Assembly: GCF_005116675.2 (NCBI RefSeq)
Contig: NZ_CP050699.1
Span: 1,821,001-1,885,000 of the forward strand
Length of the DNA stretch: 64,000 bases
Source: Desulfosediminicola ganghwensis
GTDB taxonomy: Bacteria > Desulfobacterota > Desulfobulbia > Desulfobulbales > Desulfocapsaceae
Reading direction: 5' to 3'
The notes beneath the pieces are model-generated. The model was not told where the DNA came from. It did no database searches and was given only the letters and a program-made list of their open reading frames with translations. The position numbers and the translations under genes were made by a program. This document shows, in pieces, positions 17,100 to 45,271 of this stretch. Every line of letters starts with the position of its first letter. The first letter of the stretch is position 1.

Positions 17100-17139
17100 A
17101 AAACAGGTCATGGCAAACATGTGGAGCCGGAATAAAATT

Positions 17140-17964: not shown

Positions 17965-18014
17965 CAGCGGTAGAGTTCAGTAAACAGAATGTTTCGGGAA
18001 TATGTGACGAATTT

Positions 18015-18043
18015 ATACGGTCTTCTCATTGAGAAGACCGTAT
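18015..18043. terminator. Perfect 13-bp hairpin between the 18.1-kb gene and the AraC gene
   Basis: ATACGGTCTTCTC and its exact complement with a 3-nt loop. It lies 24 bp after the stop of the minus-strand gene at 18067, so it probably terminates that gene. There is no long T-tract. Confidence 0.55.
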
Positions 18044-18066
18044 TGTCTCACCCCTTTCAAGCCGAT

Positions 18067-18438: not shown

Positions 18439-18678
18439 GAATTTCTCCAATCTCTGAAACTGCAAAAAATAAATACTATTTAGAAGCTGAAAACGCGAAT
18501 TTTCATTAATGTGATATCAAGAGAACCACTATACATGAAGTAGCTTGAACCTTCAAAGGCTTGTTTCACCGGTATTTCGGCTGCCAACGCCCGGCTGGTA
18601 ATAGGAACCGCTGTGCTTATACTATAACCAGTTCAGCGAATTTGCCATTTTCAATTTATTCAATAATTCAGAATAGAC

Positions 18679-19236
18679 ATGAGAGATTATCCGAAACGTT
18701 TGGCTTTTGGTTCCGAGCGGCAGATCAGGCAAGTAAGTGATGATTATTGCCCGGAATGTGGTTGTGCTGTGGGGACCATGCATCATGGGGGGTGCGCCGG
18801 TGAGGAGTGCCCGGTCTGTGGCAAGGCTGTTATAGGGTGTTGTTGCGAAAAGCTTTCACCATATGATGGTGAAAAGATTATACAGGGGTTGTATAACCAG
18901 TTTCGCGATTTGGAAAGTGCCATAAAAGCTGCAGGGGAAGAACGTTGTCCGCTTGGATCCGGCTCATCGTATCTCCAGCATGCCGTAATGCGATTCATTT
19001 TCGACAACGTGCCCGAAGAGGCGCGGGCAGAGGTTGCCAGGGCATTTCATCTGCGCTTCCCCGGCCTGGTTCCGCAAATGCAGGATGAGGACGGCCGCAA
19101 CTACTACACCGCCGAGCAACTTTCAGAGGCGCTGGATATCCCGGTAAGCGAAGTGAATGAGCGTATCGAGGCCATGGTCAAGGCCGGCAAGACTATCCAT
19201 TTTGGCAATGGCAGGAAACTGCGGAAGGTCCACTAG
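18679..19236 (+). CDS. Zinc-ribbon protein of unknown function
   Basis: A 185-residue protein whose N-terminus carries paired Cys motifs: CPECGC, then CAGEECPVCGKAVIGCCCEK, which fit one or two zinc ribbons, with MHHGG between them. The middle is helical, and the C-terminal 50 residues (YYTAEQLSEALDIPVSEVNE, then RIEAMVKAGKTIHFGNGRKL) resemble a winged helix-turn-helix. A DNA- or RNA-binding role is possible. The stop codon TAG lies on the first bases of a MITE-like repeat, so the repeat inserted at or formed the gene end. Confidence 0.7.
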   Translation: MRDYPKRLAFGSERQIRQVSDDYCPECGCAVGTMHHGGCAGEECPVCGKAVIGCCCEKLSPYDGEKIIQGLYNQFRDLESAIKAAGEERCPLGSGSSYLQHAVMRFIFDNVPEEARAEVARAFHLRFPGLVPQMQDEDGRNYYTAEQLSEALDIPVSEVNERIEAMVKAGKTIHFGNGRKLRKVH

Positions 19237-20894: not shown

Positions 20895-21614
20895 TTAGAA
20901 CTGGTACCTCAGCCCCATAAACAACTCCTTTGAGTTGAGGCGCGGGTTGAAGCTGCCTGCGTCTGTCCCACCGTTGAGAGCACTTTTGAGCGCTATATCT
21001 ACCTTGCCGAGGTCGACGAAGCGTAGGCCTCCATAAAGCGAGAAGTTGTCGGTGAGCAGGTACTCGACGCCCGTCTCAATCTTCCAGGCGAAGTTGGTAG
21101 TGGAGTCAGAGCCATCAAGCCAAGTGGTACTATCACCATTTATGTCCGTTTCTTGAACTGTTGCGTCGAGTAAAGCAATACCGATACCGCCACCAATGAA
21201 AAAACTGGTTTTCTCGAACTGCAGATAATCGTAATTCATGGAGAGAAAGACGGCTTCTGTTTCGAAGTCTGTATGGATAAAATAAGGCGAACTGTCAGCA
21301 GTTGGTGTTACAAAACTGCTATCACCATATTTGGTATATCCCAGGTCCACTCGCAGGTTGTCATTTACCTCGGCACCAATTTTTATGGTGCCAAAATTTA
21401 CTCCGTCTGAATCGTGGCCGTCAAAAGGAAGGTAGATGGTGGCGCCACCATAGTTTGTAGTTCCACCAGCCTTCAGCTTGGTGTCACTCCAGCCGCCCTC
21501 GGTTGCCATATAAACCCTGAAACTACGGCTACTCTTGGCGTTTGCCGTCTGAACACCTGCAGAGCCGCTACAGCTGCCAGAGTTAAAAGTATTACTGCTT
21601 TTTTCATTCCTCAA
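20895..21614 (-). CDS. Outer-membrane beta-barrel protein with an apparent N-terminal frameshift
   Basis: A small OmpW/OmpA-like barrel of about 200 residues. It ends in Tyr-Gln-Phe, the usual terminal signal for outer-membrane assembly, and has alternating strands such as VYMATEGGWSDTK and LYGGLRFVDLGKVDI. The paralogue at 44.6 kb has the same design. The frame that encodes the barrel begins with TTG at 21614 and lacks a signal peptide. A good signal peptide (MKKAVILLTLAAVAALQ) starts at the ATG at 21607 but in another frame. Inserting one base about 50-70 nt after that ATG would join it to QTANAKSSRSFRVYMATEGG and give an ANA cleavage site. So the gene carries a frameshift, or the sequence has an error. 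Confidence 0.8.
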   Translation of the reverse strand: MRNEKSSNTFNSGSCSGSAGVQTANAKSSRSFRVYMATEGGWSDTKLKAGGTTNYGGATIYLPFDGHDSDGVNFGTIKIGAEVNDNLRVDLGYTKYGDSSFVTPTADSSPYFIHTDFETEAVFLSMNYDYLQFEKTSFFIGGGIGIALLDATVQETDINGDSTTWLDGSDSTTNFAWKIETGVEYLLTDNFSLYGGLRFVDLGKVDIALKSALNGGTDAGSFNPRLNSKELFMGLRYQF

Positions 21615-25357: not shown

Positions 25358-25523
25358 AGGAGCCTGTCGGACAATAGGGGCTTTGGTCAAAATCGAGATA
25401 TTTTCAAAAAATAAGCACAGCCATATGCCTGATATCGACATCTCATTTCGTTCGCTTATCTGCGAGCATTGTTTTTTGAAAATTCCGAAGAGTTTGGGGG
25501 AAGCCATTGTCCGACAGACTCCT
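25358..25523 (-). repeat. MITE-like repeat, copy 2 (reverse orientation)
   Basis: A 166-bp element with 18-bp terminal inverted repeats differing at one position (AGGAGCCTGTCGGACAAT left; complement of ATTGTCCGACAGACTCCT right). Its core is the reverse complement of copies 1 and 3, and an internal inverted repeat (ATTTTCAAAAAA against TTTTTTGAAAAT) lets the whole element fold back. It lies between the dmsB-like gene and the radical SAM gene, starting 3 bp after the stop of the former. Confidence 0.9.
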
Positions 25524-25539
25524 GGACGGTGGGCAGACA

Positions 25540-26898
25540 ATGCTCTGCCCACCAGTATATCAACTCAGCACTATTCATGAGGGGGCGATTATCGACTCAC
25601 ATAGTTTTGTCGACCCACGTTATCAAGCGTATTGTCAGCCAATTGAGAACAAGTTAAGACGATTGCGCGAAGCGGTGCACCGGCTAGGACTTGAGTTCGG
25701 CCCGAATAGATTTGAAGAGATCTCGGCGCTGAAACGGCAGTTTACCGCTTTCGATCTCAAACAAAGAAATAATGCGCATAGCCTGTTTTTAAACCGTCTC
25801 TCGCCAGCCTGTAAATATTGTAATAGAGCAGAGGGTTCCACGACTTTTATCCTTACCCTTGCCTGTAACAGGGACTGTTTTTTCTGTACCAATCGTAATC
25901 AGCATAACTATGAACAGTTGAGCAGGACAACCAATGATGTAATCAGCCAATTCGACAATTTTGCCCAAAGGCAAAAGACAGTCCAGGCAGTGGCGTTGAC
26001 TGGTGGAGAGCCATTGCTCCATCCTGATATGTGCAGGGATTTCTTTCATCATGTGAAAGCACACGATGCCAGAATTCATACCCGTCTGTACAGCAATGGA
26101 GACCTGGTAACAGACGATATGCTGTCGAGTCTGTCGCCCTGGCTAAACGAGATTCGGCTGGGTCTCAAGCCCGATATGTATGGTGAGTTTTTGCTACAGC
26201 CAATCGGGGATGTGCTCAGTTGCTGTGCAAGACATATCTCCCAAGTCACTGTTGAAGTACCGGTTATGCCGAACAGTTTCGCCAATATGGTGGCGCTTCT
26301 CGAGCTTTGTAATACGCTTGATATTTTCAGTGTTAACCTGCTGGAATTTCTTTTTCCCTGGCACCATGCCGATTGGTACCAAAAGCAGGGCTACCGCATC
26401 AAAAAGAGGCCGTACAAGGTCCTTTACAATTACGATTATGCAGGGGGCCTGCCTATCGACGGCAGTGAAACGGAAGCTTTGCGTTGCCTGTTGCATGCGA
26501 GCAGGCATGAATTTCGGGTCGGTGTACACTACTGCAGCCTTGAGAATAAGCTAACATCTCAGATTTACCAGCAAAACAAGGCAGTTCATCCCGCCCCTAC
26601 CGAGCTGGCCTCGCAAGAGGATCATTTTCTGAAATCGGTGCGTTTTCTGGGAACGGATGCTGACAAAGCGTATCGAATTTTGCGTAATTGCGGGGTTCGA
26701 CGACTTATCAGGGATATTGAACAGAGGACTCTTGAATGTCATCCTGAAGACCTGCTTCATCTCAAAACCAGCGATATACGTGAAGCCGTGTTGACATACG
26801 CTGTTGCTGAAAATGAAAAAGCGGAGGGACTCACTGTTGTCCGTGAGGTGCATATGGAACAGATAGATCCACAGACATTTGATCCATTCGGCCTGTAG
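25540..26898 (+). CDS. Radical SAM protein in a molybdoenzyme operon
   Basis: A 452-residue radical SAM enzyme from the chosen ATG. The cluster motif is CNRDCFFC (C109, C113, C116), followed by VALTGGEPLLHPD, the SAM-binding GGE region. Two more Cys (C91, C94 in SPACKYCNRAEG) precede it, and a conserved-looking VHYCSLENK lies in the C-terminal half, so extra clusters are possible. The ATG at 25540 has only a weak GGTGGG upstream; the frame continues back into the right end of repeat copy 2, where an in-frame TTG lies at 25507. It is not MoaA: no C-terminal GG. Its place between the electron-transfer subunit and the chaperone suggests a role in maturation or modification of this molybdoenzyme. 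Function unknown. Confidence 0.8.
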   Translation: MLCPPVYQLSTIHEGAIIDSHSFVDPRYQAYCQPIENKLRRLREAVHRLGLEFGPNRFEEISALKRQFTAFDLKQRNNAHSLFLNRLSPACKYCNRAEGSTTFILTLACNRDCFFCTNRNQHNYEQLSRTTNDVISQFDNFAQRQKTVQAVALTGGEPLLHPDMCRDFFHHVKAHDARIHTRLYSNGDLVTDDMLSSLSPWLNEIRLGLKPDMYGEFLLQPIGDVLSCCARHISQVTVEVPVMPNSFANMVALLELCNTLDIFSVNLLEFLFPWHHADWYQKQGYRIKKRPYKVLYNYDYAGGLPIDGSETEALRCLLHASRHEFRVGVHYCSLENKLTSQIYQQNKAVHPAPTELASQEDHFLKSVRFLGTDADKAYRILRNCGVRRLIRDIEQRTLECHPEDLLHLKTSDIREAVLTYAVAENEKAEGLTVVREVHMEQIDPQTFDPFGL

Positions 26899-30740: not shown

Positions 30741-32192
30741 CTATTGATGACTGTCCTCCGCCACTTTATGCGCTTTGTTCTTGAATAATTCTTTCTTGAT
30801 ATTGTGCTTTGTCAGAAGTTTGTGAATTTGCCGGCGACTTACACCAGCAGTTTTAGCAGTGGCCTCGATTTTACCATTATGCATTGAGAGTAGGGTGCAG
30901 AGGTACTCTTTTTCTGACTTTCTGACTGCTTCATCCCGTATTTCGGCCAGTCTCTTAATTGATGTGTGTGATGTGTTGTTTTTGCAGGTCAGCGGATTAA
31001 TTTGAGAGGGTCTCAATTTGAACAGGTCTGTCGGGAAGAGAGTGGCGTCCAGATAGGAATTCTGTGCAAGAATGTATGCTCGTTCGAGCAGATTTTCCAG
31101 CTCTCGAATGTTTCCAGGCCACTCATACTGCTGAAAACATTCGAGAACCTCATCGGTCAGGTCAAAAATCATTTTTCCGTGCTTTGCATTGAACTGACAG
31201 AGGAAATAGTCGATGAACAGGCTGATATCTTCTTTTCTCATCCGAAGCGGTGGGACTTCTACCGGGAAAATATTTAAGCGATAGAAAAGATCGGTTCTGA
31301 ACTCCCCTTGCTGTGCCATTTTACCGAGATCATTATTTGAGGCAGCAATGATCCTCACATCGGTGGATTGGGTTCGGTTGCTGCCGATAGGCTGGAATGT
31401 CCTGTCCTGAATAACTTGCAGGAGTTTGATCTGGGTTGCGGCAGTGATTGTGCCGATTTCGTCGAGGAAGATGGTTCCCTTTGATGCTTGTTCGAATTTG
31501 CCTTTTTTGGTTTTGATTGCCCCAGTGAAAGAACCTTTTGCATGGCCAAACAGTTCACTCTCGATAAGCGATTCGGGAATTGCCCCGCAATGAACGCTCA
31601 TCATCGATTCTCCGCTCCTTTGGGAGCTGTCATGGATCAATCGGGCAATGACTCCTTTACCAGTTCCTGTTTCCCCAGTAAGTAGCACTGTTGTTTCAGT
31701 CTTGCTTACGAGAGCAACTTTTTCCAGCATTTGGTGCATCACTCTCGATTTGGTCTTGATCATTGTCGGATACCCTGTTCCGACATCGGGTGCGAGAAAT
31801 GATATTGGATTGAATGCCGGGTCTGGCTGGTTGATAACCGAATGGACAGCCGTGATAATCTGGTCGTGGGTTGTTGGCAAGGTAAGGCATGGGGTGCCAT
31901 TGTTGCTCAGTCTTACTGCTTTGCTGCTGGTCGCTGTGGAAGTAAGAATAACGATTTTTGCTTCAGGGGCAACTTTCCGAAGTGTGGCATAAAATTCCAT
32001 ATACCCATTTTTTCCGGTTTCCGGGATGGTATCTATATCAAAAATCAATGCATCCGGCTGTTGTTCTATCAGGATATTTGTTGCCTTTTGCATGATGCCG
32101 GTTTGATGTTTGCTCAAAAGGTTACGTAGTGAGCTTGGGAACAAAGAATCCTGGGCTGGCCTATCAGTTATAATGAGTATGCTGGCTACCAT
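30741..32192 (-). CDS. Sigma-54 dependent transcriptional activator (NtrC family)
   Basis: Activator of 483 residues. Order: receiver-like domain (1-120), AAA+ domain (about 145-370), and a Fis-type helix-turn-helix at the end ([20 protein letters not shown]). Walker A is GETGTGKG (173-180); the sigma-54 contact loop is GSFTGA (220-225), a variant of GAFTGA. The receiver keeps D52 (FDIDTIP) but lacks the conserved Lys (CLTLPTT at that place) and has a weak acidic pocket, so it may not be phosphorylated normally; no histidine kinase gene is near. It follows a gamma-glutamyltransferase gene by 37 bp on the same strand. The spacer upstream holds -24/-12 promoters and palindromes, so it probably controls both divergent units and itself. 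Confidence 0.93.
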
Positions 32193-32229: not shown

Positions 32230-33858
32230 TTAATTCGGGCCCAGGACTTTACCTTCCCTTCTTACCTCGGCAATCCCCTGAAATTCGTTTTTTGTCTGGC
32301 AACGCATGGCGGCATAGATTGCGCCTAGATAAAAGGAATATGGTTCCCGCTTAACGAGCTGATAGCCTGTCTTTTTTAACGAGCGGATAACTTTTTTGTC
32401 AAATCTGTCGAGTTCCAGGCTTAGTTCCCCCCCGGGGCTGCAGTGCAATCTTGGTTGTTCCATAGCCTCGTATAACGTTTTGTTGCCGTCAATGAGGTTG
32501 ATGATGAATTGGGCCATGGTTGAAAAAATTCGGTCGCTACCTGGGCTGCCAAGGGTTAACCAGGGTTTTTCGTTCATAAACATGATAGTTGGCGCAAGTG
32601 AAGACCAGGGCGTTGCGTTTGGCCTGAGGTAATATGGGTGGCTCGGGTCTTTGACTTCAAGAGTGTTGATGTAGTTATTATATAGAAATCCGAGGCCTTC
32701 GGCTGCTGCTCTGCAACCATATAATGATTCGATAGACTGACTTATGCCAACAGCATTACCTTCTTTGTCCATCACTGAGAGATGTGTGGTGTCGTTCCCG
32801 GTATTGAGGTAATTGCGCATAGTGGTCTCAGGCCCGGTCTTCGAGAGGATGGAGTTGTAAAGATCGGCAGCGAAAGAGGGGGAGGCCATGGTGTGGTCGT
32901 TTTCCTGTCTGTACATCTCTGGACGAATAGGATGCTGCTGCCGTTGGAGTAAAGCATGGCGTAGGGTCTCGGCAAGAATGCGGGCACTTTGCGGCGTCAT
33001 TGTGCTGATGAAGTCGGGCTCCGCATTATTGAGCATCTGCAGGACGAGAAGAAGATCTCTCCCTGCAGCCGGCGGGGGGACAGTGAAGATTTTCACATTT
33101 CGATAATGGCCCAGGATTGGCTTACGTACCACCGGCCACGGTATGAAGGCAAGATCGTCCCGACGGATGAGTCCGCCATGGGCTCGCATGTCTTCCTCAA
33201 TCTGTTGAGCAATCTTGCCGAGGTAAAAGGATCGTGGTCCTTCCTTGGCCAGAATAGAGAGAACGCCTGCAAGATCCTTTTGCACAAATAGATCGCCGAC
33301 ATTATATGGTTCGATACCATTTTTCAGGAAATACTTAGCACCGGAAAGGGTTTCACTGCGGAGGAATGAATCAAGCAGATTAACCTGATGAGTGTGTTGC
33401 AATTCAGAAATAGCATATCCGGTTGATGCCAGTTCTATGGCAGGCTGAAGCATCTCATCCCAATCAAGTTTTCCATATTCCAGATGTAAGTAGCCGATCA
33501 GTGCCGGAATAGAGGGAATAGTGGCGGATTTATAACCGAAAGAGCGTTCACCTTTTTGAATGCGTTGGTTGTGGGCCAGTGATGGTACCCTGCTTGAGCC
33601 GTCCAGAGCGAAGGTTTGTCCGTTGATATGGATCATACCGATACCCTGACCGCCTAGTCCGCTTGATTGAGGTTCGCAGACGCATAAAGCCATTGAGGCA
33701 GCACAGGCAGCATCAACTGCATTCCCACCTTTTTCAAGCATGCTCACGCCCGCCTTAGTGGCTTCATGAAATGCGGTCACGACTATCCCATGTTGGGAAC
33801 GGCCGAAATGTCCTCCGCAGTCATCTCTTTCATGCTTTTCGATTTTTTGAAAATCCAT
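32230..33858 (-). CDS. Gamma-glutamyltransferase, no signal peptide (copy 1)
   Basis: Ntn-hydrolase of 542 residues that should cleave gamma-glutamyl bonds after autoprocessing. The nucleophile is T357 (in NDTTHLSVMDKEGNAVG), the first residue of the small subunit after cleavage; the oxyanion region GSPGSDRI follows, and the large-subunit block GVSMLEKGGNAVDAACAASM is standard. The N-terminus is hydrophilic (MDFQKIEKHERDDCGGHFG), so the enzyme is expected to be cytoplasmic, unlike most bacterial GGTs. It is divergent from a second GGT and followed by the sigma-54 activator. Whether it hydrolyses glutathione, gamma-glutamyl peptides or another amide is not known. Confidence 0.93.
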   Translation of the reverse strand: MDFQKIEKHERDDCGGHFGRSQHGIVVTAFHEATKAGVSMLEKGGNAVDAACAASMALCVCEPQSSGLGGQGIGMIHINGQTFALDGSSRVPSLAHNQRIQKGERSFGYKSATIPSIPALIGYLHLEYGKLDWDEMLQPAIELASTGYAISELQHTHQVNLLDSFLRSETLSGAKYFLKNGIEPYNVGDLFVQKDLAGVLSILAKEGPRSFYLGKIAQQIEEDMRAHGGLIRRDDLAFIPWPVVRKPILGHYRNVKIFTVPPPAAGRDLLLVLQMLNNAEPDFISTMTPQSARILAETLRHALLQRQQHPIRPEMYRQENDHTMASPSFAADLYNSILSKTGPETTMRNYLNTGNDTTHLSVMDKEGNAVGISQSIESLYGCRAAAEGLGFLYNNYINTLEVKDPSHPYYLRPNATPWSSLAPTIMFMNEKPWLTLGSPGSDRIFSTMAQFIINLIDGNKTLYEAMEQPRLHCSPGGELSLELDRFDKKVIRSLKKTGYQLVKREPYSFYLGAIYAAMRCQTKNEFQGIAEVRREGKVLGPN

Positions 33859-33962: not shown

Positions 33963-33979
33963 GGGAACTTGAGGTTCCC
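33963..33979. promoter_or_regulatory. Palindrome in the GGT spacer, candidate activator site 1
   Basis: GGGAAC-TTGAG-GTTCCC, a perfect inverted repeat (6-bp arms, 5-nt centre). It shares its form with the sites at 34130 and 34379. It lies about 290 bp upstream of the plus-strand -24/-12 promoter and downstream of the minus-strand one, in the untranslated leader of GGT copy 1. Confidence 0.5.
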
Positions 33980-34129: not shown

Positions 34130-34146
34130 GGGAACTGAGGGTTCTC
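34130..34146. promoter_or_regulatory. Palindrome in the GGT spacer, candidate activator site 2
   Basis: GGGAAC-TGAGG-GTTCTC, same form as site 1 with one mismatch between arms. It lies about 106-122 bp upstream of the plus-strand -24 element, a normal distance for an NtrC-family enhancer. A weaker relative (GAGAAC-TGTTT-AGTCCC) follows at 34160-34176. Confidence 0.55.
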
Positions 34147-34251
34147 GTTTGCTTGAATTGAGAACTGTTTAGTCCCAAATATGGAGTCTGGAGATTGTCG
34201 ATTTGAGTAGTTGTTTAAGTTGAATGACCTAATAACAGTCAGATAGTGTTT

Positions 34252-34267
34252 TGGCGCGTTATTTGCA
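34252..34267 (+). promoter_or_regulatory. Sigma-54 (-24/-12) promoter of the GGT2/peptide transporter operon
   Basis: TGGCGCGTTATTTGCA matches the consensus TGGCACG-N4-TTGCW with one mismatch. GG (34253-34254) and GC (34265-34266) are exactly 10 nt apart. The predicted transcription start is near 34279, leaving about 177 nt before the GGT copy 2 start. Confidence 0.75.
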
Positions 34268-34455: not shown

Positions 34456-36084
34456 ATGAACAAACGAAGTCAAATCGAAAAACTCTTTCAGTCGACAGAC
34501 GATAATGTCTGCTCTGAGGGTGCTGGAGGTATGGTGGCAGCAGCCCACCCTGCTGCTACCCAGGCTGGCGTGTCGATGCTGGAAAAAGGAGGCAATGCTG
34601 CCGATGCAGCAGTAGCTACTGCTCTTGCCCTTTGTGTTTGTGAACCACAAGCATGTAGTCTTGGCGGGCAATCGTATGGGTTGCTGAATATGTGCGGGCG
34701 CTCAATTTTTCTTGATGGGTCAGGGCGGATTCCCCAGCATCTTAATGCCTCAACTCTTACAAGATCCGATGTCCTGTATGGGTACAAGGGGACATCTGTA
34801 CCAACGACTCCAGTGGTATTGGCTTGCATGCAAAAAAGATTTGGCAGATTGACCTGGGAAGAGGTTATTGAACCTGCCATCGAGTTAGCCGAGGATGGGT
34901 ATGAAATCACACAACTTCAGCATGACCTGCAAAAGCGGGAGTTGGAATTTTTTCTGTCAATACCGGGAAGAAGCGGTTCCCGATATTTCCTCAAAGATGG
35001 TGCTGAACCCTTCGACGTAGGAGATACATTTGTGCAGCCCGATCTGGCACGGTTGCTCAAGCGTCTTGCAGAAAATGGTGTGGAAGAATTCTATATAGGA
35101 AAAACTGGCCGTAGGATTGCGGAAGATATCGCAGGAAATGGCGGATTTTTGTCTAGAGAAGACCTTGCAGTGATTCCGTGGCCACATCAGCGACCAGCAA
35201 TCGAGCAGCAGGTCTTTGGCTGTAAAATGCTCACTACTCCGCCTCCAACGCAGGGTAGACTGCTGGCATATATTCTGTTGGTGGCAGAAAACATGGCCAC
35301 CCGTGGAATTGACATTCTTTCTGAGGAAGCGCTAGATTTCTTCGCCGACCTTTTTTACAGCGCCTATCGCATACGGATGGAGCAAACACCTCATCCAGAC
35401 CTTTATAACTATCTAAATGACGACATCTTATCGCAGGAATCAATTGATAAGACTGTAGAACAAATCCTTAACTCATTGGTACAGGATGTCAATCATCCAG
35501 GGCTTGAAGGGGGTGAAACAACGCATCTTTCGGTTATGGACGGAGAGGGGAATTGTGTTGGTATTACCCAGTCGGTAAATATGGTCTATGGTTCAAAGGC
35601 GGCTGCGGATGGTCTTGGATTCATGTACAATAATTATCTTATCGATTCCTTTGCTTTGCCCAATTATCATCCTCATGCACTGATTCCTGGAAGGACTGCT
35701 CCGTGTTCTGTTGCCCCGTTTATCATGATGGCCAATGATGGAACTCCATGGTTGACAGGTGGCAGTCCCGGCTCGCAGAGAATTGTTACTGCCCTGTCCC
35801 TTTTCCTGATCCGCGTTCTTCATGCAGGAATGCCAATGGATCAGGCAATGAGGCTACCTCGATTTCATTGTCAGGAGTACAAGAAGGTACTTGTGGAATT
35901 GGATAGATTCCCACAAGAATATTCCAAATTGTTAGAGCAGAGAGGGTATCTGGTGGATCACTATCCACCTTTCTATTTCGGCGCAGTTCATGCCACATTG
36001 AGAATGCAGGATACCTCTAAATATCAAGGCGTTGCAGAAATTCGTAGAGATGGGAGTGCATCAGGAGTTCGTTTGTCAAACTAG
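34456..36084 (+). CDS. Gamma-glutamyltransferase, no signal peptide (copy 2)
   Basis: Paralogue of the divergent GGT, also 542 residues. Nucleophile T355 (GGETTHLSVMDGEGNCVG), oxyanion loop GGSPGSQRI, and large-subunit block GVSMLEKGGNAADAAVATAL are all present. The N-terminus (MNKRSQIEKLFQSTDDNVCS) lacks a signal peptide, so it should be cytoplasmic. It is the first gene of an operon with the peptide importer (next gene 25 bp downstream) and is preceded by a sigma-54 promoter. The two paralogues differ along their length, which suggests different substrate ranges rather than a recent duplication. Expected to release glutamate from imported gamma-glutamyl compounds. Confidence 0.94.
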   Translation: MNKRSQIEKLFQSTDDNVCSEGAGGMVAAAHPAATQAGVSMLEKGGNAADAAVATALALCVCEPQACSLGGQSYGLLNMCGRSIFLDGSGRIPQHLNASTLTRSDVLYGYKGTSVPTTPVVLACMQKRFGRLTWEEVIEPAIELAEDGYEITQLQHDLQKRELEFFLSIPGRSGSRYFLKDGAEPFDVGDTFVQPDLARLLKRLAENGVEEFYIGKTGRRIAEDIAGNGGFLSREDLAVIPWPHQRPAIEQQVFGCKMLTTPPPTQGRLLAYILLVAENMATRGIDILSEEALDFFADLFYSAYRIRMEQTPHPDLYNYLNDDILSQESIDKTVEQILNSLVQDVNHPGLEGGETTHLSVMDGEGNCVGITQSVNMVYGSKAAADGLGFMYNNYLIDSFALPNYHPHALIPGRTAPCSVAPFIMMANDGTPWLTGGSPGSQRIVTALSLFLIRVLHAGMPMDQAMRLPRFHCQEYKKVLVELDRFPQEYSKLLEQRGYLVDHYPPFYFGAVHATLRMQDTSKYQGVAEIRRDGSASGVRLSN

Positions 36085-36108: not shown

Positions 36109-37650
36109 ATGAAAGGTAAAATGAGGTCGATAATTGCGATGGTTTTTATGATGCTGGTGGCGGTAATGCCCCTGCATGCGTCACAAGAACCAGTCAGCGG
36201 TGGTGTCTTGAAGGTTGCTATCGATTCCGACCCGCCGACTCTCGATATTCATGCAACCAGAGCCACCCTTTCAGTATTTGTTGGTGGGAACGTGTATGAA
36301 GGCTTGTATGCGTTTACAAAGAAAGGTGAGATCAAGCCAATGCTGGCACTAGACATGCCAACGGTAACTGATGATAAGCTCACCTATACCATCTCCTTAC
36401 GGCAGGATATAACGTTCCACAATAATAAGCCGATGACGTCTGCTGATGTCGTGGCCTCGTTAAACCGCTGGGGAACAATTGCATCCTATGGCAAGCAGCT
36501 CTTTAAACATGTTGAGTCGGTGACAGCCAAGGACCAGTTTACTGTTGTTATTCAACTCAAGGAGCAGTGGGGAACTTTAATGAACTCCCTGGCAATGCTG
36601 CTCGGCGGACCGGTCATTATACCCGAAGAGATTGCTCTCAAGTATCCGAGCAAACCTGCTGCGGAGTATGTCGGTACCGGGCCATATATGTTTGTTGAGT
36701 GGCGTCCAAACGACCATATCACCCTGAAACGTTTTGACGGTTATAAAGCCCTCACAACCCCAAGCGATGGATATACCGGTGAGAAGAATGCGTATCTGGA
36801 TGAGATTGTTTTCTATGGAATATCGGAAGAACCAGTACGTGTAAATGGTGTTGAAGGTGGTGAATATGATTTCGCTGACTTCGTGCCAACCGATGAATAT
36901 GATCGACTCAAAGACGCTAAAAATCTTACAACATATATCTCCCCAGCCAGAGCATGGTTTGTTTTTGTTTTGAACACCAAGTTCGGTCCTACGAAGAACA
37001 AGAAAGTTCGCCAGGCAATGTTAGCTACCATGGATGTCAATGGTGATATGGCGGCAGGTTACGGCGACAGTGTCTTCTGGCGTGTTGACCCTAGTCTGGC
37101 ATTACAAGAACAGGTCTGGCATTCCACTGCAGGTGAAGAGTCATATAACCAGAATAATATTGAAAAAGCGAAAAAACTGCTGAAAGAGGCCGGTTATAAC
37201 GGTGAGAAAATATCCTGGATGGCCGGGCCGTTAGAGTATAACCTTTCTGCTGCCGCTAAGGTTAACATGATTAAAGCCGGGCTGAATATCGACCTGGAAA
37301 GTATGGAGTGGGCAACGTTACTGTCCAGAAGAAAGAATCCTGAATTATGGAGCATGTTCAGTTCGGGTTTTACCGGCAAGGCCGATCCTTCCCTTACCAC
37401 AGCAATGAACCTCAAATATGGTGCGGGTTGGGACAATATTGAAGCTGAAAAACTCTTCGCAAGCTTTTGTCAGGAAACAGCATTCGACAAGCGCTATGAA
37501 CTGTTGGAGCAGTTTCAGGACCTGGTTTATGATGAGGTGCCGTACATCAAGGTTGGTGATTACAAAAATCTTCGTATAAGCAACAATAAGGTCCATGGGT
37601 TTGCCAATGAGCTTTACTTGTATTTCTTTAACGTCTGGAAGGAAAAATAA
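36109..37650 (+). CDS. Peptide ABC transporter substrate-binding protein (DppA/OppA family)
   Basis: Periplasmic receptor of 513 residues in the SBP_bac_5 family (dipeptides, oligopeptides, glutathione, nickel). Signal peptide: MRSIIAMVFMMLVAVMPLHA. Family blocks: GGVLKVAIDSDPPTLDIHAT at the mature N-terminus, LRQDITFHNNKPMTSADVVA, and EYVGTGPYMFVEWRPNDHI. A strong AAGGAGGAG precedes the ATG. It is the first of five transporter genes and follows a cytoplasmic gamma-glutamyltransferase gene by 25 bp, which makes gamma-glutamyl peptides or glutathione-like compounds the leading guess for its ligand. The sequence itself does not prove this. Confidence 0.93.
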   Translation: MKGKMRSIIAMVFMMLVAVMPLHASQEPVSGGVLKVAIDSDPPTLDIHATRATLSVFVGGNVYEGLYAFTKKGEIKPMLALDMPTVTDDKLTYTISLRQDITFHNNKPMTSADVVASLNRWGTIASYGKQLFKHVESVTAKDQFTVVIQLKEQWGTLMNSLAMLLGGPVIIPEEIALKYPSKPAAEYVGTGPYMFVEWRPNDHITLKRFDGYKALTTPSDGYTGEKNAYLDEIVFYGISEEPVRVNGVEGGEYDFADFVPTDEYDRLKDAKNLTTYISPARAWFVFVLNTKFGPTKNKKVRQAMLATMDVNGDMAAGYGDSVFWRVDPSLALQEQVWHSTAGEESYNQNNIEKAKKLLKEAGYNGEKISWMAGPLEYNLSAAAKVNMIKAGLNIDLESMEWATLLSRRKNPELWSMFSSGFTGKADPSLTTAMNLKYGAGWDNIEAEKLFASFCQETAFDKRYELLEQFQDLVYDEVPYIKVGDYKNLRISNNKVHGFANELYLYFFNVWKEK

Positions 37651-37652: not shown

Positions 37653-38597
37653 ATGCGTAATTTTTTAATTAAACGCATTTTCTCTATGGTCCTGGTGTTG
37701 CTGGTTGTCAGTGTGATGGTATTTGTCATTATGCACATGTTACCTGGCAACCCAGCGGCCATAATCCTGGGGCCCGAGGCGACCAATGAGGAAGTTGCGG
37801 CTCTTGCTGCAGAAATGGGGCTCGACCAGCCGGTGTGGGTCCAGTTCGTTGAGTGGGTTGGGCGCCTTGTGCAGGGCGATATGGGGGAATCGATCTTTTT
37901 CCAGAACAAACCTGTACCCGAGGTGATTGCTGATCATCTGGAAGCAACGATCCTTCTGACTATCCTCTCGCTCGGAATGGCGGTTGTGGTTGGCATTGTA
38001 AGCGGAGTATTGGCAGCAGCTGTCCATGAGACATTCTGGGACAGAGGATTTATGTTTATAACCTCGTTAGCGGTCGCGATACCGAACTTCTGGCTCGGTT
38101 TGATGCTGGCGCTGGTGTTTTCCATCATGATTCCTCTTTTCCCTCCCGCCGGGTATTCGCCTTTAAGCGACGGTTTTTGGAAGTGTCTCTCCTATCTGAT
38201 CCTGCCGTCAATCACTTTGGCGGCAGGGGCAGTGGCCCTTATTGCCCGGATGACGCGCGCCTGCATGCTCGATGTATTACGAAACGAATATATCAGAACT
38301 GCGAAAGCTAAGGGAGTGCGTCAGAGCATGGTCATTTTCAAGCATGGCCTGAGAAATGCGATAATTCCCGTGGTGACGGTTATAGGTATGACGTTCGCTA
38401 ATCTGATGGGCGGCGCGGTTGTAACCGAATCAATCTTCAACATCCCCGGGGTGGGAAGGCTCTTGATAAAGTCGGTGTTTACAAGGGATTATCCTGTTAT
38501 TGAAGGTGTCGTTATTTATATTGCTATTGCCTGGACTGTTATCAATCTCCTGGTTGATATCATTTATACGTTTATTGATCCTCGGCTTGAGTATTGA
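37653..38597 (+). CDS. Peptide ABC transporter permease (DppB-like)
   Basis: Inner-membrane permease of 314 residues with about six helices. It has the N-terminal FLIKRIFSMVLVLLVVSVMV helix and the conserved FVIMHMLPGNPA loop of DppB/OppB proteins, and an EAA loop RNEYIRTAKAKGVRQSMVIF near residue 209 followed by HGLRNAIIPVVTVIG. It starts 2 bp after the binding-protein stop and ends 1 bp before the DppC-like start. It forms a heterodimeric pore with the next gene product. Confidence 0.93.
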   Translation: MRNFLIKRIFSMVLVLLVVSVMVFVIMHMLPGNPAAIILGPEATNEEVAALAAEMGLDQPVWVQFVEWVGRLVQGDMGESIFFQNKPVPEVIADHLEATILLTILSLGMAVVVGIVSGVLAAAVHETFWDRGFMFITSLAVAIPNFWLGLMLALVFSIMIPLFPPAGYSPLSDGFWKCLSYLILPSITLAAGAVALIARMTRACMLDVLRNEYIRTAKAKGVRQSMVIFKHGLRNAIIPVVTVIGMTFANLMGGAVVTESIFNIPGVGRLLIKSVFTRDYPVIEGVVIYIAIAWTVINLLVDIIYTFIDPRLEY

Positions 38598-38598
38598 C

Positions 38599-39456
38599 AT
38601 GAGTGAAAAAGAGATATCGAGTGGAAAACGCCTTCTGAGGAAGTTCTTGAAAAATCCGACTGCGGTTTTCGGAGTGATAGTACTTGTTCTAATGATTTTC
38701 ATGGCAATCTTCGCCAATCAGATTGCACCTTATGATCCGCTGGAGATAAAGCCGGGAGATCGATTACTTGCTCCCAGTGCTGATCATCTGTTTGGTACCG
38801 ACAGGATGGGAAGGGATGTCTTTTCCCGTGTTGTTTTCGGGTCCCATATCTCCCTTGTAGTGGGCCTTGGTGTTGTTGCGTTGACTACTGTTTTTGGAAC
38901 AATGTTAGGGTTGCTTGCTGGCTATTACAAGCGTCTTGACGATGTACTTATGCGAATATTAGACGGTATGATGGCATTTCCCGGCCTTATTCTGATGATC
39001 ATGATTATGGCGGTAATGGGAAGAAGCCTGACGAACGTTGTGATTGCTCTCACCATAGTCTATGTGCCGAGGATGGCCCGTGTAGTCAGAGGTGCGGTGA
39101 TGGTTCAGAAAGAGCAGACATATGTCGAAGCAGCACGAGCCACCGGTGCAAGTGATATGCGCATACTATTGTTACATATTCCCCGCAACTGTATTGCACC
39201 GATCATTATTCAAGGCACGATGATATTTGCCTATGCGGTGCTTGCAGAGTCTGCACTCAGCTTTCTTGGTGTCGGGGTTCCGCCAGAAATACCAAGTTGG
39301 GGTAATGTGATCAGTTCCGGTAAAGTGTTTTTACGTCGTGCACCCTGGATCTGTTTCTTTTCAGGAGTTTCCGTTTCACTTTGTGTATTGGCGTTGAACT
39401 CTATAGGGGATGGTCTCCGTGATGTTTTGGACCCTCGACTGAACAACAAAGGTTAA
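38599..39456 (+). CDS. Peptide ABC transporter permease (DppC-like)
   Basis: Second permease of the importer, 285 residues. The N-terminal OppC/DppC block KRLLRKFLKNPTAVFGVIVL leads into helix 1; then HLFGTDRMGRDVFSRVVFGS, a DppC hallmark, and the EAA loop TYVEAARATGASDMRILLLH. The ATG at 38599 follows the DppB stop by 1 bp and gives a full-length family protein; an upstream in-frame Met at 38500 lies inside the DppB gene. The next gene starts 2 bp after its stop. Confidence 0.93.
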   Translation: MSEKEISSGKRLLRKFLKNPTAVFGVIVLVLMIFMAIFANQIAPYDPLEIKPGDRLLAPSADHLFGTDRMGRDVFSRVVFGSHISLVVGLGVVALTTVFGTMLGLLAGYYKRLDDVLMRILDGMMAFPGLILMIMIMAVMGRSLTNVVIALTIVYVPRMARVVRGAVMVQKEQTYVEAARATGASDMRILLLHIPRNCIAPIIIQGTMIFAYAVLAESALSFLGVGVPPEIPSWGNVISSGKVFLRRAPWICFFSGVSVSLCVLALNSIGDGLRDVLDPRLNNKG

Positions 39457-39458: not shown

Positions 39459-40460
39459 ATGGAAACACCTCTACTTAATATCCAGGAACTCTGTCTTGAT
39501 GTCCAGCTTGATGATGGCATCGGTAGAGCCCTCGACAGAGTTACCTTGCAGGTAAAACAGGGCGAAAGTCTGGGGATTGTCGGAGAGTCCGGTTGCGGTA
39601 AAAGCCTGACAGCCCTTTCCGTGATGAGCCTTCTTGAGAGCAATCTGCAAATCGCTTCGGGTTCCATCACCTTCGAAGGTCGGGATATGTCGAAACTCAA
39701 GCGTGATGCCATTCGGAAGATGCGTGGTGATGAAATAGCCATGATATTTCAGGAGCCGATGACATCTCTCAATCCTGTATTTACTATCGGTCATCAACTT
39801 ATTGAAGCAATTACCCTCCACCGTGACATTAACAGCAAGGAGGCACGCAAACTTGCCATCCAGGTTCTGGATGAGGTGGGAATCCCCTCTCCCGAAAGCA
39901 GGTTAAAGCAATATCCGCATAACCTGTCTGGAGGTATGAGGCAGAGGGTGATGATAGCCATGGCTTTGTCCTGCAGGCCCAAACTGCTGATTGCCGATGA
40001 ACCTACTACAGCGTTGGACGTCACTATCCAGGCGCAGATCTTGCGTTTGATGCGAAATCTTCAACAAAAAAGAAAGATGGGGATGATGTTTATTACCCAT
40101 GATCTTGGTGTGGTCGCTGCAATGTGTGAACGGGTTGTCGTGATGTATGGTGGCCAGGTGGTTGAAAATGCTCAGGTTCGAACGATTTTCAAGGAGCCTC
40201 TGCATCCTTATACCAAGGGATTGATTGCGTCGATTCCGCTGGTAGACGGAACGATCCCTGAGAATCTTCCTACTATCCGGGGTCGTGTCCCGTCTCTTTT
40301 AAATATGCAGAAAGGATGCCGGTTTGAACCTCGATGTGACCGGGCAATGGAGATCTGCAAAACGAAGAAACCACCCGTTTTCCCGGGAGGTTCGAAAGAG
40401 CATGAGGTTGCCTGCTGGTTATACGGAAATAAGGGTGGGGTTGCAAATGACGACGAGTAA
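39459..40460 (+). CDS. Peptide ABC transporter ATPase (DppD-like)
   Basis: ATPase of 333 residues. Walker A GESGCGKS (42-49), signature LSGGMRQRVMIA and Walker B LLIADEPTTALD are intact. The C-terminal extension ends with the oligopeptide/dipeptide transporter Cys motif (GCRFEPRCDRAMEICKTKKP), which in related transporters binds an Fe-S cluster. It overlaps the following DppF-like gene by 14 bp. It probably forms a heterodimer with that gene product. Confidence 0.94.
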   Translation: METPLLNIQELCLDVQLDDGIGRALDRVTLQVKQGESLGIVGESGCGKSLTALSVMSLLESNLQIASGSITFEGRDMSKLKRDAIRKMRGDEIAMIFQEPMTSLNPVFTIGHQLIEAITLHRDINSKEARKLAIQVLDEVGIPSPESRLKQYPHNLSGGMRQRVMIAMALSCRPKLLIADEPTTALDVTIQAQILRLMRNLQQKRKMGMMFITHDLGVVAAMCERVVVMYGGQVVENAQVRTIFKEPLHPYTKGLIASIPLVDGTIPENLPTIRGRVPSLLNMQKGCRFEPRCDRAMEICKTKKPPVFPGGSKEHEVACWLYGNKGGVANDDE

Positions 40461-41457
40461 GACACTGCTTGAAGTACGGGACTTAAGAAAGTGGTTTAAA
40501 ATTGGCAAGGGACTGTTTACCCAACCGAAGTATGTCAAGGCAGTCGATGGTGTGAGCTTTTCCCTTGAAAAGGGTGAAACCTTAGGGATAGTCGGTGAAT
40601 CTGGTTGCGGGAAAAGTACCCTGGCCAGGCTCATCATGCGCTTGATAGAGGCAGATTCTGGAAAAGTTCTCAGTAAAGGCAAAGATGTCACCCATGTAAA
40701 GGGGAAAGAACTCAAGAATGTGCGAAAAAACATGCAGATGATTTTCCAGGATTCCTATGCTTCTCTTAATCCAAGAATGCGTATCGGGAAAATCATTGGG
40801 GAACCGCTGATTATTCATGGCGAAGGTACGGCCAGGGAGAGGCGCAGCCGGGTTGAGGAGGTGCTGGAACTGGTGGGACTTTCCCGGAAAAGTTATGACA
40901 AATTTCCACATCAGTTTTCCGGTGGGCAGCGTCAACGTCTTGATATCGCTCGCGCTTTGGTTTGTAATCCGGAGATTATCATCTGTGATGAGGCTGTCTC
41001 CGCACTTGATGTATCAGTGCAGTCGCAGATTTTGAATCTGTTAAAAGATCTGCAGAAAAAACTCAACCTTTCGTACCTCTTTATTAGTCACGACCTGAGT
41101 GTAGTTCGGCATATCAGCGATACCGTCCTCGTCATGTACCTGGGGCAAACAGTGGAAGTCGCAGGGAAGTACGATTTTTTTGAACAGCCTCTACACCCCT
41201 ATTCACAGGCACTTATCAGCGCTGCTCCGCGTCCTGATCCCGATGCAGTCTCCCAGCAAATTGTTCTTTCAGGAGAAGTTCCCAATCCAATGAATCCTCC
41301 TTATGGCTGTTTTTTTCATCCTCGCTGTCCACTTGCCGATGAGAAATGCAGAACTGAAGCACAGAAATTGATAGAGGTGTCTCCCGACAGGTTTGCTGCC
41401 TGCTGGAAACTCAATGATGGAAGCAGGCCTCGGTTGAGCCCTCCGGATTCAGCGTAA
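40447..41457 (+). CDS. Peptide ABC transporter ATPase (DppF-like)
   Basis: Second ATPase, 336 residues from the ATG at 40447. Walker A GESGCGKST (50-58), signature FSGGQRQRLDIARAL and Walker B IIICDEAVSALD. C-terminal Cys motif CFFHPRCPLADEKC is present. The ATG overlaps the DppD-like gene by 14 bp; an in-frame open stretch to 40324 lies inside that gene and is rejected. Last gene of the transporter; the aminomutase-like gene begins 124 bp downstream with no terminator in between. Confidence 0.93.
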   Translation: MTTSKTLLEVRDLRKWFKIGKGLFTQPKYVKAVDGVSFSLEKGETLGIVGESGCGKSTLARLIMRLIEADSGKVLSKGKDVTHVKGKELKNVRKNMQMIFQDSYASLNPRMRIGKIIGEPLIIHGEGTARERRSRVEEVLELVGLSRKSYDKFPHQFSGGQRQRLDIARALVCNPEIIICDEAVSALDVSVQSQILNLLKDLQKKLNLSYLFISHDLSVVRHISDTVLVMYLGQTVEVAGKYDFFEQPLHPYSQALISAAPRPDPDAVSQQIVLSGEVPNPMNPPYGCFFHPRCPLADEKCRTEAQKLIEVSPDRFAACWKLNDGSRPRLSPPDSA

Positions 41458-41524: not shown

Positions 41525-41572
41525 ATGCGTCAGGATGTTGGCTTTATCGAACAAACAATAGAAAAGGCGTAA
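41525..41572 (+). CDS. Possible 15-codon leader ORF ahead of the aminomutase gene
   Basis: ATG at 41525 with GAGGAAG a few bases upstream reads MRQDVGFIEQTIEKA and stops at 41570-41572, 9 bp before the aminomutase ATG. The site is better than that of the aminomutase gene itself (AACAGAAAGCT). It may be a leader that couples translation, or the debris of an earlier start. Confidence 0.25.
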   Translation: MRQDVGFIEQTIEKA

Positions 41573-41581: not shown

Positions 41582-43162
41582 ATGAAAGTAACCAGCGAAA
41601 ATAGCACGGAAACGAAACCGGTACTCGACAATTATACTAATGAACTGCTCGACGAGATTTGTGCTCCTGTGCAGAATCCAAGATCTCCAGCAGATGAGAT
41701 AAAAAGCGAGATCAACCAGCTCTTAGTAGAAGCCAAACAGGGTGAACTGACTAACTCAATTGTCATGCTTTTTTCCCGTCTCCTTGAGTTGCGAAAGATG
41801 TCAATATGTCACGAAAATCTCGATATCTCAAGGGAGGATCTCGAGAAGCTTGCACTCAAACATCAGCAGATTGATGAACATATGGTGACGGTGGGAGGTC
41901 GTGTCTCACAGGCCCTGCCCATAGCAAATACCGCTAACAGCAGAGTTGAAGAATATTTGCAGAAAAAGGATAAAGAGGCGTCCAGTGGTATCGAGTTGTG
42001 GGACCAGGTCCAGGAAAATATAGCCAGGATCAAGAGGACACTGAAGATGAGTGACGACGATTGGAACTCTTTTTCGGGACAGATCCGTCACGCGGTTGAT
42101 TCCGTGGAGACTCTCGGCAAGCTGATAGATCTCCCGGCAGACGTGTTACAGAAAGTGGCCAATGTTACCAAATCGTACCGGATACGACTTACCCCCTATT
42201 ATACGAGCCTGATCATGCCCGGGCAGTTGAACGACCCAATTATGCTTCAGTCGGTTCCTACGGGAGAGATGATTGAAAACGCAGGGATCGAGATACCACC
42301 TGTCGCCGCAGACCACTCGCCTGCCAGGCTGGTTGACCAGTTTTACCCCCGGGTAGTGACGATCAAAGCTACCAATATGTGTGCAATGTACTGTACCCAC
42401 TGCCTGCGGTTGGCTCATATTGGCAGAAAGGACAAGGTGTATTCCAAAGAGGCATACGGAGAGGCCTTGCACTATATCCGTAACAATAAACAGGTTCGTG
42501 ATGTTTTAATCACTGGCGGTGATGCTTTTGTATTACCGAATTCATTACTGGAATGGTTACTCGGTGAATTAGATCAAATTGAACATCTCAAGACGAAGCG
42601 TTTGGGTACACGAATCCCGGTTACTGCGCCAATGCGGGTCGACAATGAATTGCTTGATATTTTAGAAGCAAGTAACGACAAAAAACCAGTGCGGGTTGTA
42701 ACCCAGATTAATACACCTCAAGAGATTACTCCGGTTTCAATGGATACCTTCAGGCAGATATCCAAGCGGACATTTACAGTCCTGAACCAGGCTGTATTGC
42801 TGAAAGGCATCAACGACACCAGAGTAAAGATGTGGAAGCTTTGTGAGACGGTTCAGGAGGCCTATGTCCGACCGTATTACCTGTTCAATTGCAGCTACAG
42901 GAATCCGCAGTTCAAACACTTTCGGGTACCGATCGATGTCGGTCAGGACCTGGTGGAATCTATGTACGGCAACATTTCCGGTGATGCAATTCCACGTTAT
43001 ATTGCCACAGCCGGAGGCAAAATCCCCCTGCATCGTTCCAACGTGGTGAAGATTGAAAATGGTGACATTACACTCCGAAAGCCATGGAGCGGGGAAGAGG
43101 TAACCTATCCAGACGCAGATCAGGCTATCTATGAAAATGAAAGTTATGCTTTCAAGGGCTGA
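41582..43162 (+). CDS. Lysine-2,3-aminomutase-like radical SAM/PLP enzyme (KamA family)
   Basis: A 526-residue protein: about 190 residues of helical N-terminal extension, then the KamA core. The cluster motif is CAMYCTHC (C267, C271, C274); LITGGDAFVLP is the SAM region. PLP lysine: K480 (ATAGGKIPL). KamA-family enzymes move an amino group from carbon 2 to 3 by radical chemistry. The two Asp that bind the lysine side chain in lysine 2,3-aminomutase (D293, D330 in the clostridial enzyme) align with S438 and T476; glutamate 2,3-aminomutase has Lys and Asn there. The loop before K480 is three residues shorter. Hence neither substrate is supported. It is co-directional with the GGT2/transporter operon, 124 bp downstream. 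Confidence 0.9.
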   Translation: MKVTSENSTETKPVLDNYTNELLDEICAPVQNPRSPADEIKSEINQLLVEAKQGELTNSIVMLFSRLLELRKMSICHENLDISREDLEKLALKHQQIDEHMVTVGGRVSQALPIANTANSRVEEYLQKKDKEASSGIELWDQVQENIARIKRTLKMSDDDWNSFSGQIRHAVDSVETLGKLIDLPADVLQKVANVTKSYRIRLTPYYTSLIMPGQLNDPIMLQSVPTGEMIENAGIEIPPVAADHSPARLVDQFYPRVVTIKATNMCAMYCTHCLRLAHIGRKDKVYSKEAYGEALHYIRNNKQVRDVLITGGDAFVLPNSLLEWLLGELDQIEHLKTKRLGTRIPVTAPMRVDNELLDILEASNDKKPVRVVTQINTPQEITPVSMDTFRQISKRTFTVLNQAVLLKGINDTRVKMWKLCETVQEAYVRPYYLFNCSYRNPQFKHFRVPIDVGQDLVESMYGNISGDAIPRYIATAGGKIPLHRSNVVKIENGDITLRKPWSGEEVTYPDADQAIYENESYAFKG

Positions 43163-44566: not shown

Positions 44567-45271
44567 ATGAGAACTTTTATGTTAGCGGCAGGGATAGTAG
44601 CATTTACGGCAATCGGCAGTCAGGCGGCGGGGTTGGAAAAGAGTAACGGACGATTTTATGTCGCTGCCGAGGGGGGCTACGGAAAGGTTGAGAACTCAAC
44701 AGGTGGATATGCCGGAGAGATAGTATACGATGGTGCGCCTTGGCTAAATACAGGCAGTGACGATGACAATGGAGGCTCTATAGGGGTGAAGGTGGGTATG
44801 CACCTTGGTGAGCGCTTCAGGATGGATCTGGGCTATGCGTATTACGGCGAGAATGATTTTACGACCAAGAGTGACCCTCTAGAAGGTGGGTATCTCTGGC
44901 AAAGTGAGGCTGAGATACATACGGTAATGCTTGCAGCATATTATGATTATGCTCAATTCAAAAAGGTTAATTTATATATTGGGGCCGGGATTGGAGCCTC
45001 ATTCGTTGATTTTGATGCTTTGGAATATTGGACAGGTTCTGGTGAACCCTCTGGCTGGTATAGTTCTGAATCTGATACTCTTTTTTCTTGGCAGGTCGAA
45101 ACCGGAATTGAGTATCTGCTGGCACAAAACATAACACTGTATGGCGGCTTTCGGTATATTGACCTTGGCGAGATAGATTCTGTTGTTGTTAATGTAAGAG
45201 GCCCAGACGGCAACCTCACGGCAGATCTCGATGTTCAGGAGATATTTGTTGGTTTGAGATATCGATTTTAA
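44567..45271 (+). CDS. Outer-membrane beta-barrel protein
   Basis: A 234-residue barrel, paralogue of the protein at 20.9-21.6 kb. Here the signal peptide is intact (MLAAGIVAFTAIGSQAAG). Alternating strands include RFYVAAEGGYGKVENSTGG, RMDLGYAYYGENDF, VNLYIGAGIGASFVDF and ITLYGGFRYIDLGEIDSV, ending in YRF, the outer-membrane assembly signal. About eight strands are expected (OmpW/OmpX-like). Function unknown; small barrels of this type include porins, adhesins and structural proteins. A hairpin and a decayed MITE-like repeat follow. Confidence 0.85.
   Translation: MRTFMLAAGIVAFTAIGSQAAGLEKSNGRFYVAAEGGYGKVENSTGGYAGEIVYDGAPWLNTGSDDDNGGSIGVKVGMHLGERFRMDLGYAYYGENDFTTKSDPLEGGYLWQSEAEIHTVMLAAYYDYAQFKKVNLYIGAGIGASFVDFDALEYWTGSGEPSGWYSSESDTLFSWQVETGIEYLLAQNITLYGGFRYIDLGEIDSVVVNVRGPDGNLTADLDVQEIFVGLRYRF

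Follow-up and report, generated by a model that had tools for sequence, protein, structure and literature searches.

Organization of the KamA locus

The window, by which we mean the whole stretch of 64,000 nucleotides that was analyzed, carries at 41582..43162 on the plus strand an ORF of 526 residues that encodes a 2,3-aminomutase-like radical-SAM/PLP enzyme of the KamA type, with a helical N-terminal extension (~1-143) and a core (144-510). The gene closes an apparent operon, GGTb-oppABCDF-KamA, which starts with a gene for a GGT-type N-terminal-nucleophile hydrolase/transferase (GGTb, 34456..36084, plus strand) that has no signal peptide as judged by eye. It is followed on the same strand by genes for an OppA/GsiB-like solute-binding protein (36109..37650), an OppB/GsiC-like Opp-type permease (37653..38597), a second Opp-type permease that was assigned to OppC by its position (38500..39456, where the ORF start is probably too early) and the Opp-type ATPases OppD (39459..40460) and OppF (40447..41457, with the start set at an internal ATG of ORF 40324-41457). 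Counterparts of the gene at the OppC position occupy the same place in the related loci L051, L065 and L073. A second GGT-type gene, GGTa (32230..33858), whose product passes PF01019, and a gene for an NtrC-like regulator of the sigma-54 type (30741..32192) run in the opposite direction on the minus strand. The regulator was recognized by eye and has GSFTGA, a variant of the 'GAFTGA' sequence; regulator-like genes are found at the same place in L035, L051, L058 and L073.

The region between the divergent GGT genes contains an inverted repeat, GGGAAC-N5-GTTCCC (33963..33979), which is a possible regulator site, and a second sequence that resembles it at 34130-34147, although within the window the motif occurs near chance level when up to three mismatches are allowed (4 found, 2.6 expected). 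A tentative Sigma-54-like -24/-12 site with one mismatch lies at 34252..34266 on the plus strand; such sites barely exceed chance in the window at up to two mismatches (83 found, 69 expected). No M20 hydrolase gene follows the KamA gene in the window, and no remnant of one was seen by eye in the three frames downstream. Two further observations, both by eye, concern the surroundings. A radical-SAM-like ORF (25507-26898, with CNRDCFFC) is located after molybdopterin-oxidoreductase-like and ferredoxin-like ORFs, and two small proteins of outer-membrane type that are alike are encoded on either side of the operon (20895-21614, minus strand, and 44567-45271, plus strand).

A distinct subfamily within the KamA family

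The sole solved relative that was recovered with phmmer at E 0.001 is the lysine 2,3-aminomutase of C. subterminale (PDB 2a5h; E 1e-66). In the phmmer and MAFFT alignments C267, C271, C274, R276 and K480 of the window protein correspond to C125, C129, C132, R134 and K337 of 2a5h, where we take R276 to be the arginine that binds the carboxylate and K480 the PLP lysine. A scan of genome contigs of 84,980 species yielded 111 confirmed stretches, 80 loci of which were kept. Judged by record titles these are mostly from Desulfobacterota, with a few from Spirochaetales/Spirochaetaceae, Brocadiaceae and others. The alignment of the subfamily comprised 75 rows (74 loci and the window), to which four outgroup KamA rows were added to make 79; six partial homologs (L050, L077, L080, L081, L082 and L084) and one long paralog (L016, 6055-7851) were left out. 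R276 and K480 are invariant in all 75 subfamily rows, and C267, C271 and C274 in all 79. The original prediction, whose ORF, coordinates and named residues are all as we find them, had described the cysteine triad and the PLP lysine as intact, and both the alignment to 2a5h and the invariance within the subfamily bear this out.

The AlphaFold model of the window protein (mean pLDDT 89.1, built from the 79 rows) matches 2a5h with a Z-score of 41.5 and an rmsd of 2.3 A over 340 aligned residues. The aligned range begins at residue 144 of the model and residue 3 of 2a5h, so that the long N-terminal extension that had been predicted would amount to ~143 residues beyond the match. The structural match rows barely probe this domain, for which searches by sequence gave neither a PDB match (E up to 5) nor a Pfam match that reached the cut-off. 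It is nevertheless conserved among the subfamily rows, with H94 and D98 in 74/75 and E99, H100 and R107 in 75/75. This conserved but unmatched domain, together with a threonine (T272) that in all 75 subfamily rows replaces the Arg of the CxxxCRxC motif of the lysine enzyme (the R130 position), could be read as the mark of a KamA-fold enzyme with another PLP/radical reaction, such as a racemization, an elimination or the change of a peptide-bound residue. Considering that the KamA core residues, including the PLP lysine and the carboxylate arginine, are common to all 79 aligned rows, we regard such a reaction as quite improbable.

The non-synonymous divergence of the window gene from four relatives is only 0.16-0.20 while the silent sites are saturated, which indicates that the window copy is constrained. 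Given this modest divergence and the invariant catalytic residues (75/75), the sequences support the earlier expectation of a functional protein, and the product is very probably an active amino-shifting enzyme of a subfamily of its own.

The window protein passes the cut-off of the KamA family model TIGR00238 (227.5 versus 199.2 bits) and misses those of the models for specific enzymes: TIGR03820 for lysine (279.3 versus 525.4), TIGR04368 for glutamate (342.5 versus 650), TIGR04468 for arginine (227.8 versus 600), EpmB (177 versus 369) and AblA_like_2 (208 versus 396). The TIGR04368 cut-off was passed by none of 58 relatives and none of 14 controls, and no glutamate aminomutase was found among these or in one further record. 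Identification as a glutamate aminomutase by means of this profile was considered and rejected, since L087, a lysine-type protein with the Asp/Asp pair, scores 492 bits on the model and thereby outscores the window protein; the model thus provides no evidence for a glutamate substrate. A wider alignment was made in which 16 of the 75 subfamily rows were joined by 23 further KamA ORFs and by 7 reference rows, and the tree was derived from it after removal of three long or odd rows (L004, L016 and L122). In this tree the subfamily, represented by its 16 rows, forms a single clade (support 100/99) that has a long stem and does not include the lysine and arginine 2,3-aminomutases; as long branches meet there, the nearest neighbor of the clade is unsure. 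These comparisons of sequences support a distinct KamA subfamily with a substrate unlike lysine or arginine.

The substrate pocket

According to the original prediction, S438 and T476 stand in for D293 and D330 of the lysine enzyme, and the loop that precedes K480 is shortened by three residues. The replacements recur in the phmmer alignment to 2a5h and in the wider MAFFT alignment, and the loop reads TAGGK versus DAPGGGGK in 2a5h. The two residues are not peculiar to the window but are found throughout the subfamily, where they are invariant (75/75). The same holds for K262, T272, R440, N441 and R472, which are present in all 75 subfamily rows, whereas the four outgroup KamA rows have other residues or gaps there. 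R440 and N441 are located two and three residues after S438, and R472 four residues before T476. In the AlphaFold model R472 is part of the strand 472-475 and K262 ends the strand 258-262; the K262 position is occupied by Leu in 2a5h and in the lysine enzymes L117-L119. By alternation along the strand R472 should face the same side as T476, and on the same grounds K262, R440 and R472 should point into the pocket. We infer that two acids have given way to polar and basic groups, a change that would fit an acidic or amide side chain.

Not all of these changes are specific. Thr at the D330 position, combined with a loop shortened by two, is also found in the annotated arginine 2,3-aminomutases L120 and L121. 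In contrast, these two arginine enzymes, 2a5h and the annotated lysine enzyme L119 all retain the Asp at the D293 position (4/4), as do the unannotated lysine-type rows L087, L088, L117 and L118. The distinctive feature of the pocket is therefore the Ser at the D293 position followed by the invariant R440/N441, plus R472. In glutamate 2,3-aminomutase the side-chain pair is presumably Lys/Asn, where the window protein has Ser/Thr.

These data bear on two alternative substrates. If the protein were a conventional 2,3-aminomutase that contacts lysine or arginine via other residues, this would agree with its 34% identity to the lysine enzyme, with the fold match over the full core and with the threonine shared with the arginine enzymes, but the lack of an acid at the D293 position, the missed cut-offs for both (279 versus 525 and 228 versus 600) and the separate clade make this reading highly improbable. 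The claim of a new substrate stands to the extent that residues, curated cut-offs and tree all separate the protein from enzymes for lysine and arginine. That the substrate is wholly new is plausible, and so is one of glutamate or glutamine type that would be held by other residues, for which the invariant and basic K262, R440 and R472 are candidates. The small and uncharged residues at both clamp positions could also suit a small neutral or hydrophobic amino acid (e.g. alanine, leucine or methionine), with S438 and T476 being inert. Strict conservation of S438, R440, N441, R472 and K262 is more than a hydrophobic side chain would need, and a 2,3-aminomutase of this kind is fairly improbable.

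Conserved partners: an ATP-grasp ligase and an M20 hydrolase

In the relatives the KamA gene is the middle gene of a conserved operon. In 55 of the 68 loci that extend for at least 1500 bases upstream, a gene for an ATP-grasp ligase precedes it in the same orientation, within 2.5 kb. The 13 loci without it are the seven with GGT-type genes (see below), L052, where the ligase gene is present but reversed, L012, where a ligase-like piece is found in another ORF, and L061, L072, L076 and L078. Downstream, a gene for an M20 hydrolase resembling carboxypeptidase G2 is found within 1.5 kb in 51 of the 69 loci that have at least 1300 bases downstream, and is missing in the other 18. Ligase, KamA and M20 genes follow one another in L007 (Desulfopila aestuarii DSM 18488), for example, and L031 (Desulfofustis glycolicus DSM 9705) has the ligase and KamA genes, with no M20 gene found in its stretch. 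The association extends to the genome level: among 58 genomes, including the own genome, KamA was found in 15 (E 1e-120), the ligase in 15 (E 1e-40) and both in 14 (Fisher p 2e-11, uncorrected for kinship). As to the two exceptions, in one the KamA match starts at base 12 of the contig and in the other the ligase match is partial.

E340, N342 and R344 of the ligase, which we take to be functional residues of the ATP-grasp fold, are kept in 57 of 57 rows (L085 and 56 of the 57 full-length ligase loci). In the hydrolase H85, D87, D113, E147, E148, E172 and H355, presumably the metal residues, are kept in 31 of 31 rows (L085 and 30 of the 52 full-length M20 loci), and the same letters are found in 1cg2; the best PDB match is carboxypeptidase G2 (E 2e-36 and 5e-31). 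The best match of the ligase is the glutamate ligase BesA, restricted to some 90-100 residues of the ATP-binding core, and the score on the BesA model is 32 bits against a cut-off of 750. Assignment of the ligase specificity by fold was tried as well and proved uninformative, as the matches tie over many ATP-grasp families (Z 23.4-25.7 among the 50 matches listed), with purine enzymes and carboxylases on top among those listed. Ligase and hydrolase probably act in one pathway with the KamA enzyme.

The partners also bear on a reading in which the window protein is a variant glutamate 2,3-aminomutase that converts free glutamate into the osmolyte beta-glutamate, with other basic residues holding the carboxylate and with the ligase and hydrolase belonging to a side pathway. 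We consider this unlikely, given the missed glutamate cut-off, the absence of the presumed Lys/Asn pair and the ATP-grasp partner in 14 of 15 genomes, which speaks for an end product other than a free beta-amino acid. What it has in its favor are the invariant basic residues K262, R440 and R472, the genus names or record titles of several relatives (uncounted), which suggest marine or saline settings, and the fact that beta-glutamate is a known osmolyte, PMC1224877 describing beta-glutamate and beta-amino acids as osmolytes in methanogens. By analogy, an osmolyte role is possible for the product of the window enzyme.

A separate observation concerns another KamA clade (L096-L110), with an Asp/Asp pocket in the five members that were aligned (L096, L097, L101, L105 and L109). 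This clade seems to adjoin ATP-grasp genes similar to D-Ala-D-Ala ligase, which form clusters of 14 and 10 loci; the members shown are in L101 and L106, and the one in L101 matches Dala_Dala_lig_C. KamA enzymes may thus pair with ATP-grasp ligases more than once.

The GGT/Opp loci and the history of the window copy

GGT-type genes were found in seven of the 80 loci besides the window (L035, L039, L046, L051, L058, L065 and L073). ATP-grasp genes are absent from all seven of these stretches, as are GGT genes from all 58 ligase loci. Within the loci that have at least 2500 bases upstream, the ligase is present in 0/7 GGT loci versus 46/50 others (Fisher p 1e-6, uncorrected for kinship). Opp genes accompany the GGT genes in five of the seven (L035, L046, L051, L065 and L073) and the M20 gene in six (all but L035). 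A gene for a TAXI-type TRAP solute-binding protein is present in 21/58 ligase loci and 0/7 GGT loci, the stretches being unequal in length.

The GGT label changes at least four times on the tree. The window KamA gene is sister to the ligase-type gene of Desulfopila sp. IMCC35008 (99/97), and L073, which has the gene order of the window, has a KamA gene that branches elsewhere in the tree. L073 also has a second full set of Opp genes in opposite orientation (13153-18819), after its KamA-M20 pair. Directly before the window KamA gene, at 41528..41572 on the plus strand, the DNA encodes RQDVGFIEQTIEKA followed by a stop, a likely vestige of the C-terminus of an ATP-grasp ligase. When compared with the 3' ends of the ligase genes of four relatives, using the largest score of 500 shuffles as threshold, this DNA scored above the shuffles for L006 (34 versus 27) and L085 (33 versus 22) and not for L005 (23 versus 24) and L007 (18 versus 27). 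From its sequence the element is likely a scrap of a lost ligase gene. The simplest story would be that a ligase-type KamA gene was recruited into a GGT/Opp operon, after which the ligase was lost. The same genome has a ligase-KamA-M20 operon elsewhere, whose KamA protein is 77% identical to the window copy; the host, probably a sulfate reducer, has two copies of the KamA enzyme from this branch.

The GGT-type proteins themselves deviate from E. coli GGT, in which Arg114 and Gln430 bind the glutamyl group and Asn411 and Asp433 its amine. The Thr nucleophile is kept in all 13 aligned proteins, within TTH(L/I/F)S (T355 in the window GGTb). Arg114 and Gln430 are replaced by Ser and Tyr, respectively, in 13/13, which argues somewhat against plain gamma-glutamyl substrates, although an Arg two places after this Ser (11/13) might stand in for Arg114. 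The equivalents of Asn411 and Asp433 are kept in the eight proteins of the GGTb type, including the window GGTb, whereas the five proteins of the GGTa type have Glu and Thr. The two types thus differ in their possible hold on the amine of the acyl group. Neither corresponds to a classical gamma-glutamyltransferase, and GGTb misses the TIGR00066 cut-off (304.3 versus 357.85). Speculatively, proteins of the GGTa type could act on a beta-amino acyl group.

Proposed function

The reading that we prefer, with a rough probability of 0.45, is that the window protein acts as a 2,3-aminomutase on an amino acid that resembles glutamate or is of amide type, in a pathway that either produces beta-amino-acid peptides or amides or imports and opens them. 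From the catalytic machinery, the changed pocket, the subfamily and the gene partners as observed, we infer its reaction, the glutamate-like substrate and the direction of the pathway as follows. The [4Fe-4S] cluster and SAM would generate a 5'-deoxyadenosyl radical, which would take the C3 hydrogen from the substrate held as an imine on PLP (K480), after which the amino group would shift from C2 to C3. This radical chemistry is established for lysine 2,3-aminomutase, and the window enzyme would share it. R276 would hold the alpha-carboxylate of the substrate, and the end of the side chain would meet, in place of the anionic Asp/Asp clamp, a polar and basic site made up of S438, T476 and N436 together with K262, R440 and R472. 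Such a pocket makes a glutamate-like substrate the likeliest, i.e. glutamate, its amide or a gamma-glutamyl (pseudo)peptide. The product would then enter a pathway with the ATP-grasp ligase, which would make an amide or peptide bond, and the M20 hydrolase, which would break one. In the window, the GGT-type hydrolases and the Opp importer would replace the ligase, probably to import and open the same kind of compound.

Alternatively, the ligase could act first and make a gamma-glutamyl-type (pseudo)peptide, with the KamA enzyme shifting the amino group on the ligated substrate and thereby converting the glutamyl end into its beta-amino isomer. In the GGT loci, opening of the alpha form could then fall to the GGTb type, which keeps the amine-binding pair, and that of the beta form to the GGTa type, in which the pair is replaced. 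This order of events appears unlikely, but if true it would imply that sulfate reducers make beta-amino-acid peptides as a new class of metabolites. The occurrence of a coherent subfamily with a reshaped pocket mostly in lineages of sulfate reducers, with fixed ligase and hydrolase partners, would hint at a beta-amino-acid compound not yet described, which might serve as an osmolyte or a nitrogen store. In addition, an enzyme that makes beta-amino acids without the acidic clamp would be useful for grasping and engineering substrate choice within the KamA fold.

Comparison with known systems

To our knowledge, few specificities have been assigned for radical-SAM aminomutases, namely lysine, glutamate, arginine and the lysine of EF-P. 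A literature search that covered titles and the starts of abstracts, and in which enzyme names containing commas went unmatched, returned no account of the operon described here. The fold and the chemistry are known; what is new is the gene setting, with a ligase and hydrolase or with GGT and Opp, which the original prediction had left unmentioned and which tells more than the residues.

With lysine 2,3-aminomutase (AblA/KamA, 2a5h, TIGR03820) the window enzyme has the fold, the CxxxCxxC motif, the PLP lysine, the carboxylate arginine and the core in common. It differs in having Ser/Thr instead of Asp293/Asp330, a loop that is shorter by three residues, Thr instead of R130 and, unlike 2a5h, an N-terminal domain of ~143 residues. 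The gene context differs as well: the neighbors within the subfamily are ATP-grasp/M20 or GGT/Opp genes, whereas the annotated plasmid-borne lysine enzyme L119 adjoins an acetyltransferase gene. The glutamate 2,3-aminomutase of Clostridioides difficile (Eam, TIGR04368) is expected to employ the same KamA chemistry and, like the window enzyme, presumably lacks the Asp/Asp clamp, although we take its residues to be Lys/Asn versus Ser/Thr here. Arginine 2,3-aminomutase (BlsG, TIGR04468) resembles the window enzyme in its shortened loop and in the Thr that occupies the D330 position, but both BlsG rows keep the Asp at the D293 position, which is Ser in the window enzyme, and the clades are separate. 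For the ligase, the parallel with the BesA-type ATP-grasp glutamate ligase is confined to the ATP-binding core. In the beta-ethynylserine pathway to which BesA belongs, an ATP-grasp ligase likewise operates next to an amino-acid-modifying enzyme.
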